Origin: Archaeoglobales archaeon
Lineage (GTDB): Archaea; Halobacteriota; Archaeoglobi; Archaeoglobales; Archaeoglobaceae
Length of the DNA stretch: 37,024 bases
NCBI GenBank assembly: GCA_011605865.1
Contig: JAAOZI010000039.1
Location: forward strand, 1 to 37,024
Reading direction: 5' to 3'
The notes below the pieces were generated by a model, which made no database searches, had not been told where the DNA came from, and saw nothing but the letters and a program-made list of their open reading frames with translations. Shown here one piece after another: positions 1,909-37,024 of the stretch; position 1 is the first letter of the stretch, and every line of letters starts with the position of its first letter. The position numbers and the translations under genes were made by a program.

Positions 1909-2811
1909 ATGATAGATCTCCTCCTCCCACTTGTATCATTTGTAGTAGCTTTCTTTACATCTCCAGCCGGTGTAAGTGGAGCATTTCTTTTGCTTCCATT
2001 TCAGGTGAGTATTCTGGGATACACTTCCCCTTCCGTGAGCGCAACGAATCTCGTTTACAATCCCATAGCTATTCCAAGTGGTATATATCGCTATATAAAA
2101 GAGAAAAGAATGGCTTGGCCTTTAGTCTCGATAACCGCTCTTGCAACTCTTCCTGGAGTCTTCATAGGAGCCGTTTTAAGGTCGAGCTACTTTCTTGATC
2201 CGAAGCTTTTTAAGCTATTTGTCGGTTTAGTCCTACTATATCTCGGTCTCAGAGTTTTAAGTTCTGTCCTTAGACCGAATCCAAAGATATCTGAGCTTGA
2301 AAAAAGGTTTAAAGAGAGAGTAGGGATGATAAAAAGAGAGAGAGAAAAAAGATTAGCTGCCGGGCTACCACCAGATGCTGTTGTAAAGACTAAAAAAATT
2401 GGGATCAGAAAGATAGAATATGAGTTTTGGGGAGAAATCTTCTCTTTCTCCCCGCTCTTAGTATTTGCGGTTTCATTCGTGATCGGAATAATTGGTGGAA
2501 TTTATGGAATAGGTGGGGGAGCAATTTTAGCTCCAATTTTTGCGAGTGTCTTCGGTTTGCCCGTTTACACAACTGCGGGAGCGACACTTCTGGGAACATT
2601 TTTAACCTCCTTGTTCGGTATTATGGGTTATTACGCAGTAGGATACCCTCCGGACTGGAAAATCGGATTAGCTTTTGGTATAGGAGGGTTTTTTGGGATG
2701 TATCTGGGAGCGAGATTCCAGAAATTCATGCCCGAAAAAACGATAAGGCTTTGCCTTTCAGCAATTGTGCTTACAACTTCTGTTAGTTATGTAGTTCAAT
2801 TCTTTTTTTAA
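1909..2811 (+). CDS. TauE/SafE-family membrane permease
   Basis: About 300 residues with the two-half architecture of the sulfite exporter TauE/SafE (UPF0721) family. The first half opens with a hydrophobic helix and FTSPAGVSGAFLLLPFQ, the second repeats the signature as GGIYGIGGGAILAPIF followed by TTAGATLLGTF. A charged cytoplasmic loop of about 60 residues (near 120-180) links them. These proteins move small anions such as sulfite or organosulfonates across the membrane; the substrate here cannot be read from sequence. ATG 1909 is chosen from the TATA spacing, and TTG 1891 would add six residues. Confidence 0.85.
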   Translation: MIDLLLPLVSFVVAFFTSPAGVSGAFLLLPFQVSILGYTSPSVSATNLVYNPIAIPSGIYRYIKEKRMAWPLVSITALATLPGVFIGAVLRSSYFLDPKLFKLFVGLVLLYLGLRVLSSVLRPNPKISELEKRFKERVGMIKREREKRLAAGLPPDAVVKTKKIGIRKIEYEFWGEIFSFSPLLVFAVSFVIGIIGGIYGIGGGAILAPIFASVFGLPVYTTAGATLLGTFLTSLFGIMGYYAVGYPPDWKIGLAFGIGGFFGMYLGARFQKFMPEKTIRLCLSAIVLTTSVSYVVQFFF

Positions 2812-2824
2812 AAACCGAGAAAAG

Positions 2825-2834
2825 TTTATAAATA
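2825..2834 (+). promoter_or_regulatory. TATA box of the ferritin operon
   Basis: TTTATAAATA is centred about 26 nt before the ferritin ATG at 2855, which predicts a leaderless or almost leaderless transcript. A purine-rich tract just before it could be the BRE. I see no clear operator palindrome. Confidence 0.55.
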
Positions 2835-2854
2835 ATTTAATTAAGAAAAAAGAT

Positions 2855-3385
2855 ATGGCCATTAGTGATAGAGTTGTTAGAGAATTGAATTTGCAACTAA
2901 ACAGGGAGATATACTCTGCCTATTTGTATCTTTCCATGGCTGCCTATTTTGAATCCGTAGGACTTAGGGGTTTTTCAAAGTGGATGAAGGTTCAGTGGAG
3001 GGAAGAGTTGATGCACGCAATGAAATTCTTTGATTATATAGCCAGTAGGGGAGGAAGAGTAGAATTATATGCAATCGAAGCTCCACCGAAGGACTGGAAA
3101 TCTCCGCTTGATGCATTTGAGTTCGCTTTGGCCCATGAAAAGGAGGTAACTAAAAGAATATCAAATCTTGTTGAGTTGGCAATAGCTGAAAAAGATCATG
3201 CAACATTCAACATGCTTCAGTGGTTTGTTAACGAGCAAGTTGAAGAAGAGCAGAGCTTCGAAGAGGTTGTTTTAAAACTAAAGCTTGCTGGAAATGACAC
3301 AAGAGCTATACTCTTCCTCGATTCAGAACTAGGAAAAAGAGAGGTGAGTGCTGAAAATGAATCTTCAGGCGCTCTACAAGATTAG
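2855..3385 (+). CDS. ftnA: Ferritin (non-heme iron storage protein)
   Basis: This 176-residue four-helix-bundle ferritin should oxidise Fe(II) at its diiron centre and store iron in a cage. Visible features are the NREIYSAYLYLSMAAYFES helix A, the EELMHA motif with the ferroxidase Glu and His near residues 50-54, a Glu-rich third helix (LAHEKEV) and QVEEEQSFEE in helix D. Length and order fit the Archaeoglobus-type ferritin, which assembles an unusually open 24-mer; whether this one does cannot be seen here. The last residues (SAENESSGALQD) overlap the start of the next gene by 29 nt, suggesting translational coupling in an iron operon. Confidence 0.93.
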   Translation: MAISDRVVRELNLQLNREIYSAYLYLSMAAYFESVGLRGFSKWMKVQWREELMHAMKFFDYIASRGGRVELYAIEAPPKDWKSPLDAFEFALAHEKEVTKRISNLVELAIAEKDHATFNMLQWFVNEQVEEEQSFEEVVLKLKLAGNDTRAILFLDSELGKREVSAENESSGALQD

Positions 3386-3863
3386 CTATGGTCTTTATAT
3401 TGTTTCTTCAGTGAAAAACGGAAAATACTCTGCTCAGGTAGCAAATACGGTTTTTCAGGTTACTTCTGAACCCCCAAAGGTTGCAGTTTGTCTGAACAAA
3501 AAGAACACGACACATGAGTTTGTTAAAGATTCAAAAGTTTTTGCTGTAAGTGTATTAGAAAAGGAGACACCTTTGCAGTTCATAGGAAAATTCGGATTCA
3601 GAAGTAGCAGAGATTTTAACAAATTTGAGGGAGTTAATTTTAGAATTGGTAAAACCGGTTCGCCAATAGTTTTGGATCATGCAGTGGCTTTTCTGGAAGC
3701 GAGAGTTTTGCAGGAATGTGATGTCGGAACCCATACATTGTTTATTGGCGAGCTGGTAGACGCTGATATTTTAAGGGATGTAGAAGTTATGACGTACGAG
3801 TATTATCACTATGTCAAAAAAGGAAAAGCTCCAAAAACTGCGACAGTTTATTTAGAAAAATGA
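3357..3863 (+). CDS. Flavin reductase-like FMN-binding protein
   Basis: About 168 residues, whole length of the flavin reductase-like (flavoredoxin/DIM6-NTAB) domain. The N-terminus ALYKISYGLYIVSSVKNGK and the middle SEPPKVAVCLNKKNTTHEF match the FMN-binding beta-barrel pattern, and the C-terminal THTLFIGELVDADIL is a family hallmark. It probably transfers electrons from NAD(P)H or another donor through FMN. ATG 3357 is preferred over GTG 3348 because GAGGTGAG at 3341-3348 is well placed as a ribosome site. It starts inside the ferritin gene and overlaps the next gene by ATGA, so a role in reducing or releasing ferritin iron is a reasonable inference. Confidence 0.85.
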   Translation: MNLQALYKISYGLYIVSSVKNGKYSAQVANTVFQVTSEPPKVAVCLNKKNTTHEFVKDSKVFAVSVLEKETPLQFIGKFGFRSSRDFNKFEGVNFRIGKTGSPIVLDHAVAFLEARVLQECDVGTHTLFIGELVDADILRDVEVMTYEYYHYVKKGKAPKTATVYLEK

Positions 3864-4401: not shown

Positions 4402-4445
4402 TTACCACCTGAAAGCCTCGCTCTTCAGGGCGGGGAGGAGGTCAG
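4402..4445 (+). mobile_element. 40-bp mini-element: TTAC target plus fused left and right IS605 ends
   Basis: TTAC at 4402-4405 is followed by CACCTGAAAGCCTCGC, identical to the left end of the 1.67-kb element at 30435, and then directly by CTTCAGGGCGGGGAGGAG and GTCAG, its right end. The two ends share the hairpin core, so it looks like a recombined or internally deleted copy with no cargo. Confidence 0.65.
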
Positions 4446-30434: not shown

Positions 30435-30544
30435 CACCTGAAAGCCTCGCCCTTCAGGGCGGGAATGGGGAAAGAGAAAAATTTATAAGTGTGTATCCTC
30501 TAATATATTCGGGAGGTGTCTTGGAGGGCGAATCTTCCGAGTGG

Positions 30545-30951
30545 ATGAGACTTAGAAGCACTAGACATACTAAATATGGTGTGGTTATCACTTTTTGTAT
30601 GGATCCCTAAGTATCGTAGGGATAATTCTTGTGGGAGAGGTTGCCAAGTACACTAAAGAGGTCTTAAGTGAAATACTCAGGGAGCTGGGGTGCGAACCAC
30701 TAGCTCTAGATGTTATGCCTGACCATGTCCATGTGTTTGCTTTATGCCCTCCAAGGCACTCTCCAGCCTATATCGCGAACTACCTTAAGGGCAAGAGCGC
30801 TAGGAGAATACTGCAGAGGTTCCCGGAGCTAAGAACTAGAGCTACCCGTGAGAAGCTGTGGAGTAGAAGCTACTTTGTAGCAACAGTTGGAAACGTAACA
30901 GCCGACATCGTTAAGAAGTACGTTGAAGAGCAGTGGGAGAAGGAGAAATGA
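30545..30951 (+). pseudogene. tnpA: IS200-type Y1 transposase tnpA, frameshifted
   Basis: ATG 30545 starts MRLRSTRHTKYGVV, then reading shifts twice near 30570-30620: the expected family segment ending WIPKYRRDILVG is visible only across frames. From there the protein is intact to the end: HUH motif in MPDHVHVFAL, and the catalytic Tyr in VKKYVEEQW. The indels should abolish full-length protein. It ends with an ATGA overlap on tnpB. Confidence 0.8.
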
Positions 30952-32130
30952 AGAGAACAAGCGTTGTGAGGCTCATAGTTGATAAAAGCTCTGAGGAGAA
31001 GCTGAAGTTGCTCTGCAATTTATCGTCTAAGCTGTGGAACGAGGTTAACTACGCCAGGAGGAGGATGTTCTTCGAGAAGAAAGGAGTAGATCTCAAAGCA
31101 ACGTACAAGGAGTTCTACGAGAAGTATAAAACACTAATAGGTTCTGCCACAGCACAGCAAGTTTTGAATAAGAATGATGAGGCTTGGAGGAGCTTCTTCA
31201 AAATGCTAAAGCTCAAGAAAGAGGATAAGCTACCGCCGTTCATTACAAAAATCAATCCGCCAGGGTATAAGAAAAAAACAACAGGAGGATTTTGTGGATT
31301 GTTCTAAGGAAAGATCAGTATAAAATAGAAGATGATAAAATAGTTCTCAAAGGACTAGGTATTATTGGAAAGATAGAGCTGAGATATGAAGGATTGGTGC
31401 ACTTGAAGGGAGAGCAGGCAGGCTGGAGATACACTATGATCCAGACAGGAAGAGATGGTATGCTCATATATCGTTTGAGGTAAGCGAGAAGGCTGTCAGA
31501 GGAGCGTGGACTAGCGTCCCAAAGAAGCCAAGAGGGAATCTAGTGGCAGGTATTGATGTTGGTACCAACAATCTCATGGCTATATATGTTGAAAATGGCT
31601 TAACGCAACTTGTTAATGGCAGACCATTAAAAGCTATATCTCACTACTGGAGGATGAGAATTGCTGAGTATCAGTCCATGTTGAACAAATACGGTTTGAA
31701 GACTTCTAGAAGGCTTAGAACTATGTACTCCAAGTGGAGAAGACAGATAAAGTCATATGTTGATTCGAGAGTTAGACAAGCTATTGAGTGGCTTTATAAT
31801 GTGGAGTCTCTATTATAAAAATTGGCTACCCTAAGAACATTGCACAGGAAAATGGAAACTTCAACAACGTCCACGTATAGACATATGGCTACTTGCTGAG
31901 AAATTTATGAGGTTGCAGAAGAATACGGGATAACGGCGATCTACGTAAGCGGGGCATACATACTCATAACCCCGAGTCCCGAGAGGGATAGGGGTAATGG
32001 ATCGGAGACCCGGCCTGGGATTGAACCCTCAGGAAGAGGGGATGTAGTCCCAAACCTCTCCGCACTAGCAGGAACCTTCGCCCTTCAGGGCGGAGAGGAG
32101 GTCAGAAGGAGAATTTCGAAGAAGTTATAG
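30948..32130 (+). pseudogene. tnpB: tnpB RNA-guided nuclease gene, frameshifted and missing its zinc finger
   Basis: Order of surviving parts: N-terminal MKRTSVVRLIVDKSSEEK, LIGSATAQQVLNKNDEAW, a frameshift near 31280, IGKIELRYEGLVHL, a shift near 31420-31480, the first RuvC motif GIDVGTNNLMAIYV, then a stop at 31816 and more shifts before GNFNNVHV and EEYGITAIYVS. The segment that should carry the CxxC zinc finger and last RuvC Asp is deleted, and the frame resumes as PSGRGDVVPNLSALAGTFAL to the TAG at 32130. Catalytically dead, but the 3' hairpin region is intact. Confidence 0.78.
32072..32105 (+). repeat. Right end hairpin of the IS605 element (putative guide-RNA scaffold 3' end)
   Basis: CGCCCTTCAGGGCG hairpin followed by GAGAGGAGGTCAG. 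It overlaps the tnpB C-terminal codons, as TnpB guide-RNA scaffolds commonly do. Copies appear at 953 (-), 4406 (+) and 11834 (+). Confidence 0.6.
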
Positions 32131-36529: not shown

Positions 36530-36598
36530 GTTCCAATCTAAAATTGTATGCTCACAACAGAAAGCCTCGCCTTTCAGGGCGGGGATGAAATAGAAAAG

Positions 36599-36606
36599 TT
36601 TATAAA
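36599..36606 (+). promoter_or_regulatory. TATA box inside the element's left end
   Basis: TTTATAAA about 26 nt before GTG 36628 predicts a leaderless transcript starting at the zinc-ribbon ORF. The 1.67-kb element has TTTATAAG at the equivalent place. Confidence 0.5.
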
Positions 36607-36627
36607 TGTTTGTGTGTATGTTTGTTG

Positions 36628-36759
36628 GTGGTGTGTTTGGTTAGGTTGAAGTGCCCTTCGTGTGGTCATGTCTGGGATTACAAGGGCAAAAGGAAGTACT
36701 ACGCTAACTGCCCGAACTGCCATAGGAGTGTGAACATAGCTAAGTATAGAGTTGAGTAG
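36628..36759 (+). CDS. 43-residue zinc-ribbon protein encoded before tnpB
   Basis: Small frame with two CPxC knuckles: LKCPSCGHVWDYKGK and ANCPNCHRSVNIAK, that is C-x2-C ... C-x2-C spaced for one zinc. Start taken as GTG 36628 from TATA spacing; TTG 36625 or 36622 are alternatives. It ends 2 bp before the tnpB ATG, so the two are probably translated together. Similar tiny proteins sit ahead of tnpB in several thermophilic archaea as I recall; their role is not known to me. Confidence 0.7.
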   Translation: MVCLVRLKCPSCGHVWDYKGKRKYYANCPNCHRSVNIAKYRVE

Positions 36760-36761
36760 GC

Positions 36762-37024
36762 ATGTCTTCAGGCGATGAGGGTTTGCTAACCCTAACCATC
36801 AAGATGAGGGTTAGCCCTGAGCTTGGTTCAGGGCAGGAGCTCATAAACCTCATGAGGAGGTATAGGGAAGCGCTGAACTACGCTATAGAAGTTGTTATAG
36901 AGAACAAAGCGTTAAGCCTCGGCAAAGCCCATAAACTACTGTACAACGTTCTTAAAGAGAGGTATGGTCTTCCTTCTAAAGTTGCTCAGGACTGCTACAG
37001 GGAAGCGATCACAGTTGCAAAATC
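36762..37024 (+). CDS. tnpB: TnpB RNA-guided endonuclease, N-terminal part, cut by window edge
   Basis: 87 codons are visible, open to the edge, with no stop or frameshift, so this copy may be intact. The N-terminus LLTLTIKMRVSPEL, then LMRRYREALNYAIEVVIENK and LLYNVLKERYGLPSKVAQDC, is typical of TnpB from thermophilic archaea. RuvC motifs and the zinc finger would lie to the right. Differs from the tnpB at 30948, which starts with a VVRLIVD segment, so two TnpB lineages share the same left end. Confidence 0.82.
   Translation, partial: MSSGDEGLLTLTIKMRVSPELGSGQELINLMRRYREALNYAIEVVIENKALSLGKAHKLLYNVLKERYGLPSKVAQDCYREAITVAK

Follow-up and report, generated by a model that had tools for sequence, protein, structure and literature searches.

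A zinc-ribbon gene placed recurrently before tnpB in tnpA-less IS200/IS605-type elements of archaea

The right edge of an archaeal contig raises the question of why a tnpB gene without a tnpA should be preceded at once by a gene for a tiny zinc-ribbon protein (ZnR), and whether this protein works with TnpB. The window, that is, the whole stretch of DNA analysed, is 37,024 bases long and makes up contig C10 of the Archaeoglobales genome assembly G000; loci carry L numbers and genomes G numbers below. Judged from its sequence, 36556–37024 is the left part of a tnpA-less IS200/IS605-type element with the order left-end hairpin, TATA-like box, ZnR, 2-nt gap and tnpB (Table 1), and the right edge of the window, which is the end of the contig, falls inside tnpB. 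The initial annotation had described a CPxC...CPxC reading frame ending 2 bp before the tnpB ATG, a TATA box ahead of both genes, no tnpA before them and a left end shared with a tnpA-tnpB element. These points were borne out: the frame is open up to TAG 36757–36759, the TATA-like box lies 5′ of ZnR, no tnpA precedes ZnR in this element, and its left end is 85% identical over ~50 bases to positions 30440–30492 of the tnpA-tnpB element. The proposed length of 43 residues held in so far as the frame is open from GTG 36628; the start aligned with relatives is TTG 36637, giving 40 residues. Starts at GTG 36628 or 36631 are possible alternatives to the TTG chosen by alignment, and neither choice is proven. 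In the tnpA-tnpB element, the Y1 transposase match begins at model position 19 of 121 and the tnpB frame is interrupted. The window also holds, at 4406–4445 after TTAC, a gene-free 40-base minimal derivative in which the left end is joined straight to the right end (ending GGTCAG).

Table 1. Features of the window element, of a related element in the window and of the complete relative L170
Feature	Position	Strand	Remark
Flank CTCAC	36551..36555	+	directly 5′ of element start 36556
Left end with hairpin	36556..36589	+	arms 36565–36571 and 36578–36584
TATA-like box TTTATAAAT	36599..36607	+	read in sequence
ZnR	36637..36759 (stop included)	+	40-residue C4 zinc-ribbon protein, start TTG 36637
tnpB, first 87 codons	36762..37024	+	ATG 36762; cut by contig end
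Related tnpA-tnpB element, left end as window element	30435..32105	+	both genes broken
L170 ZnR	2501–2620		stop outside range
L170 tnpB	2626–3783		386 codons, stop outside range

The tnpB-only elements of the IS200/IS605 family constitute the IS1341 group. Elements of this group and those described here share hairpin ends, a TTAC-type flank, a tnpB that apparently has the TNB zinc finger and the lack of tnpA; the window type differs in that a zinc-ribbon gene has been added 3′ of the promoter and 5′ of tnpB. The group name is found in PMC10134880, and TTAC is given as the target of IS608 in PMC8612924. As in tnpB-only IS200/IS605 elements, hairpin left and right ends lie at a short fixed target: TTAC adjoins the left end in 9 of the 11 copies listed, the exceptions being the window copy (CTCAC) and L172 (neither), and right ends were found in the relatives L170, L202 and L203 and, 3′ of tnpB, on contigs C13, C18 and C3 of G000, the window stopping before its own. 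The TATA-like box ends 28–36 nt 5′ of the ZnR start in 10 of these 11 copies and 19 nt in L203. Left ends resembling that of the window element were seen in Desulfurococcaceae and Sulfolobales relatives. No known RNA family was detected at the gathering threshold at the six loci searched, and no DNA match of the element was found on plasmids. G000 has four tnpA matches; the element may be mobilised in trans by a Y1 transposase.

G000 (1.27 Mb, 45 contigs) has two more intact ZnR copies, one on contig C31 and one on C30. Both are arranged as in the window element and likewise run out of contig within tnpB; in the C31 copy, which is close to that of the window, tnpB is open for 114 codons up to that point. 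A fourth element, on C23, carries an internal deletion in ZnR. At least four contigs (C10, C31, C30 and C23) end inside tnpB, and 3′ pieces of window-type tnpB lie at the edges of C13, C18, C3 and C38. A query comprising left end, ZnR and tnpB gave 31 matches in G000, mostly owed to the left-end part, and the TnpB C-terminal domain gave 32.

A whole element was found at L170 in an Ignisphaera MAG, with TTAC flank, left end, ZnR, tnpB and right end. The window TnpB fragment is 82% identical over 87 aa to L170 TnpB, which scores 119 bits against the cut-off of 100 of the NCBIfam family guided_TnpB (NF040570), so that the window gene belongs to the RNA-guided tnpB family by way of its complete relative. 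The TnpB of L064, representing a second type, stays under that cut-off with 91.6 bits. In TldR-like proteins, which are nuclease-dead TnpBs, the RuvC catalytic residues are lost. Inspected by eye, L170 and L064 TnpB apparently have the RuvC residues D, E and D as well as CxxC...CxxC; the window copy ends before these positions. The copy at L179 may be dead because its tnpB is frameshifted near the start.

ZnR itself bears the marks of a conserved protein. C6, C9, C25 and C28 are invariant in the 13 rows of the alignment, and the pooled pN/pS of 12 copies of 37 codons each, chosen by intact frame with broken copies outside the count, was 0.184. Since the shifted frames of the same DNA gave 2.79 and 1.19, this ratio indicates that ZnR evolves as a protein under selection. 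The structure model is a confident four-strand ribbon (mean pLDDT 90.5), and the pI is 9.1–9.9 across five ZnRs (9.6 for the window copy). A chance reading frame was ruled out by pN/pS, by the C31 and C30 copies in like arrangement and by the rarity of the pattern, the six frames of the window containing just one further CxxC-(10 to 22)-CxxC match. We also dropped the idea of a zinc finger detached from TnpB, because L170 and L064 TnpB, read by eye, appear to retain their own CxxC...CxxC. Among Pfam families, the window ZnR matched DUF7836 best, with 25.1 bits against a cut-off of 26.7 (the cut-off compared for this family alone), and three ZnRs searched against NCBIfam exceeded no cut-off. 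Fold searches returned weak zinc-ribbon matches, among those listed RNA polymerase and ribosomal zinc ribbons. The best viral match, at E 0.012, was to a protein of His 2 virus. For a ribbon of 40 residues, weak fold matches carry no information. A search of a phage collection with ZnR gave no match.

We surveyed ZnR loci starting from the small protein. A one-sequence query of 37 residues gave five clear matches in 60 genomes, all of them immediately 5′ of a tnpB start or overlapping it, and a profile of these five recovered the same five in 392 genomes of the window's phylum plus one of like strength in G166, also at tnpB. Weaker profile matches in the 392 genomes numbered 42 in the list, of which 25 were read, none with tnpB downstream by eye. 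Across 84,980 species genomes, 21 ZnR loci were obtained, one of them (L188) bacterial and weak. Among the 20 archaeal loci, eight (L168–L173, L179 and L181) have tnpB, a tnpB start or a remnant directly downstream, three (L177, L182 and L187) stop within ZnR at a contig edge, and nine have no tnpB there. The contigs of these three, from different MAGs, stop at identical ZnR codons in the second CPxC; in L182, an Aenigmatarchaeota MAG, ZnR is preceded ~100 bases upstream by a TATA-like box and a left end resembling a hairpin.

Spacing of the pair is tight: the gap is 0–2 nt in the window type, and ZnR overlaps tnpB by 65 nt in L063, 29 nt in L064 and ~23 nt in L181. Each of the five ZnR matches in G687, including a partial one, is located at a tnpB. 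L063, L064 and L105, of the second element type, resemble one another by eye across the ~170 bases that separate the left hairpin from ZnR, possibly an RNA or regulatory region. ZnR is open while tnpB is truncated or degenerate in L168, L169a, L172 and L226, and in L318 (G667) ZnR is followed by an assembly gap, with no tnpB match. An open ZnR whose tnpB is decayed or, as in L318, gave no match would be compatible with a function in trans, or with one that does not depend on the TnpB next to it, but the decay may just be recent. At L169 the element is present twice, ~2 kb apart, with one tnpB decayed and the other open.

Relatives of ZnR without tnpB also occur on archaeal plasmids and on viral contigs, the latter with no tnpB by eye at any of 15 loci. 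The viral zinc ribbons (e.g. L132, L133 and L134) share the pattern CxxCGxxWDYxGK...YYATCPxC with ZnR, but have no adjacent tnpB recognised by eye. Searches of viral contigs for TnpB relatives, with an L064-led alignment and with the L170 TnpB query, confirmed none. We also observed a ZnR-like domain at the N-terminus of 326–389-codon frames in one genus group (L109, L111, L112, L117, L118 and L123), and three ZnR-like copies in tandem on a Thermoplasmatota contig (L178, 2134–2975).

The reverse survey, blind to ZnR, took L170 TnpB as query against 398 genomes of its phylum (E 1e-40); because scoring stopped at four candidates per genome, counts are lower bounds. It gave at least 65 matches, of which 15 were set aside (no 5′ end or overlap with another match) and 50 were examined. 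Among the matches listed, an intact ZnR was present in 10 of the 20 loci with at least 50% TnpB identity and in none of the 30 below 50%; the ratio is 8 of 17 once L201 and L203, which the ZnR search had already turned up, are removed together with L209, which shares a genome with L203. The initial annotation would have been contradicted by a small ORF absent or broken in most related tnpB loci, and this was half borne out: the small gene was intact at half of the closer loci, and no intact copy was present at the other half or at the more distant ones. Of the 10 closer loci without intact ZnR, L255 has a clear remnant, L209 and L256 have weak remnants, four come from G512, and L260, L261 and L276 show nothing. 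No ZnR was found at nine examined control TnpBs of ~30% identity, in genomes reached via ZnR loci, nor at a further 16 TnpBs from the phylum of the window.

Loss can be followed within single genomes. Clear remnants were found at C23, L148, L227 and L255, and copies that have lost ZnR coexist with copies keeping it in G000, G395, G687 and G667; G398 has a lost copy alongside a keeping copy split over two contigs. G006 contains a ZnR-deleted copy and elsewhere a ZnR-like match of 21–22 bits at most. G512 maintains at least four open TnpB copies without ZnR and yielded no ZnR match at E 0.001, and a match was likewise absent in G619, G759, G564 and G423. G512 keeps TnpB copies with no detectable ZnR, and half of the 20 closer loci have no intact copy; together with the three TnpB groups described next, this marks ZnR as an accessory gene that has been recruited and lost repeatedly, rather than as a subunit that TnpB must have.

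ZnR-bearing TnpBs fall into three groups: the window type, the L063/L064/L179 type and L181. Constraining them to one clade cost 77 log-likelihood units, and a single clade was rejected (p-AU 1.8e-6), in a test that presumes a group named beforehand and on a tree where L181 and others are long-branched. Well-supported branches by themselves require at least two changes of ZnR state. Among TnpBs lacking ZnR, the closest sisters of the window type in this tree are two from Sulfolobales plasmids (99/96). The tree thus points to addition of ZnR before tnpB in at least two TnpB lineages, probably three, and the copies described above indicate repeated loss within the window type. The base of the window type is without resolution, so the ZnR-less copies of G512, G619, G759 and G564 represent either a state before the gain or losses.

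The Sulfolobales plasmids pMGB1, pRT2, pHVE14 and pHGQ25 carry comparable elements whose TnpBs are 37–39% identical to L170 TnpB. Left end and promoter position are similar in all four, and so is the right end in the three read (pMGB1, pRT2 and pHVE14), whereas tnpB stands straight after the promoter, with no ZnR. Since both ends and the promoter of these ZnR-less relatives resemble those of ZnR-bearing elements, no RNA or DNA feature specific to ZnR was seen.

Our leading proposal, a tentative one that falls somewhat short of even confidence, is that ZnR may bind nucleic acid as an accessory to TnpB or to expression of the element. ZnR would be made together with TnpB as the first gene behind the promoter-like box, would bind omega-RNA, the TnpB–RNA complex or element DNA, and would tune the amount of active nuclease formed or its performance. 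Since a ZnR encoded by another copy could stand in, or none be needed, single copies would lose the gene easily. From co-translation, the initial annotation had suggested that the small protein acts with TnpB, for example as a nucleic-acid-binding accessory or a regulator of the mobile element. A selected two-gene unit is supported by the 0–2 nt gap or overlap, the protein-level selection and the occurrence in three TnpB groups that form no single clade, and joint action of the two proteins is plausible; an obligate partnership is argued against, most of all by the G512 copies. A stronger form, which we regard as doubtful, is that ZnR could be a true protein cofactor, making a two-component RNA-guided nuclease whose separate ribbon, taken up independently by several archaeal lineages, would keep omega-RNA or target binding stable at high temperature. 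According to PMC10097598, ISDra2 TnpB is active as a monomer together with its RNA.

Several other roles were weighed against the accessory function. ZnR might be an autoregulator, holding down tnpB expression by binding to the promoter, the left end or the leader mRNA of its element, as the place of ZnR first behind the TATA-like box, the RNA polymerase and ribosomal zinc ribbons among its fold matches and the tnpB-free relatives on archaeal plasmids and viral contigs would allow; those fold matches are, however, uninformative, and the similar left end and promoter of the ZnR-less Sulfolobales elements reveal no operator special to ZnR-bearing ones, and we consider this role unlikely. That ZnR helps transposition, by binding single-stranded end hairpins and assisting TnpA from other elements, seems rather improbable: the element has no tnpA of its own, carries the same left end as a tnpA element and keeps ZnR open in some copies with truncated or decayed tnpB, yet the ends are alike with and without ZnR, and ZnR-less copies have multiplied, e.g. 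at least four in G512. Equally hard to credit, and placed just behind, is a service to the mobile element against its host, such as counter-defence, with the tnpB promoter merely borrowed; the tnpB-free relatives on viral contigs and archaeal plasmids and the His 2 virus match would suit it, but the position precisely before tnpB in three TnpB groups, overlapping in two, exceeds what promoter borrowing needs. A leader reading frame serving tnpB translation, its protein having no role, would explain the tight coupling and the repeated loss of ZnR while tnpB stays, but is very improbable given the pN/pS of 0.184, the invariant zinc ligands and the kin proteins that occur without tnpB.

The accessory function would have a counterpart in Cas12f, a nuclease resembling TnpB with an additional zinc module, which, according to PMC10097598, is a zinc-finger domain between WED and REC; there the module lies within the protein, whereas ZnR is a separate protein. 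Up to an E value of 10, the matches listed for the ZnR profile included no chain of Cas12f. The built-in zinc finger of Cas12f is a suggestive parallel, not demonstrated kinship. In the literature searched, covering titles and the beginnings of abstracts with most subscription papers outside that coverage, the ZnR-tnpB pairing is named nowhere; within that coverage, the component parts are known and the recurrent two-gene arrangement was not met. Elements with and without ZnR, with similar ends and related TnpBs, provide a natural comparison that makes protein partners of TnpB directly testable. Should ZnR prove a true cofactor, it would parallel the zinc-finger domain inside the Cas12f chain. 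TnpB tools might also profit from ZnR–TnpB pairs taken from hyperthermophiles.
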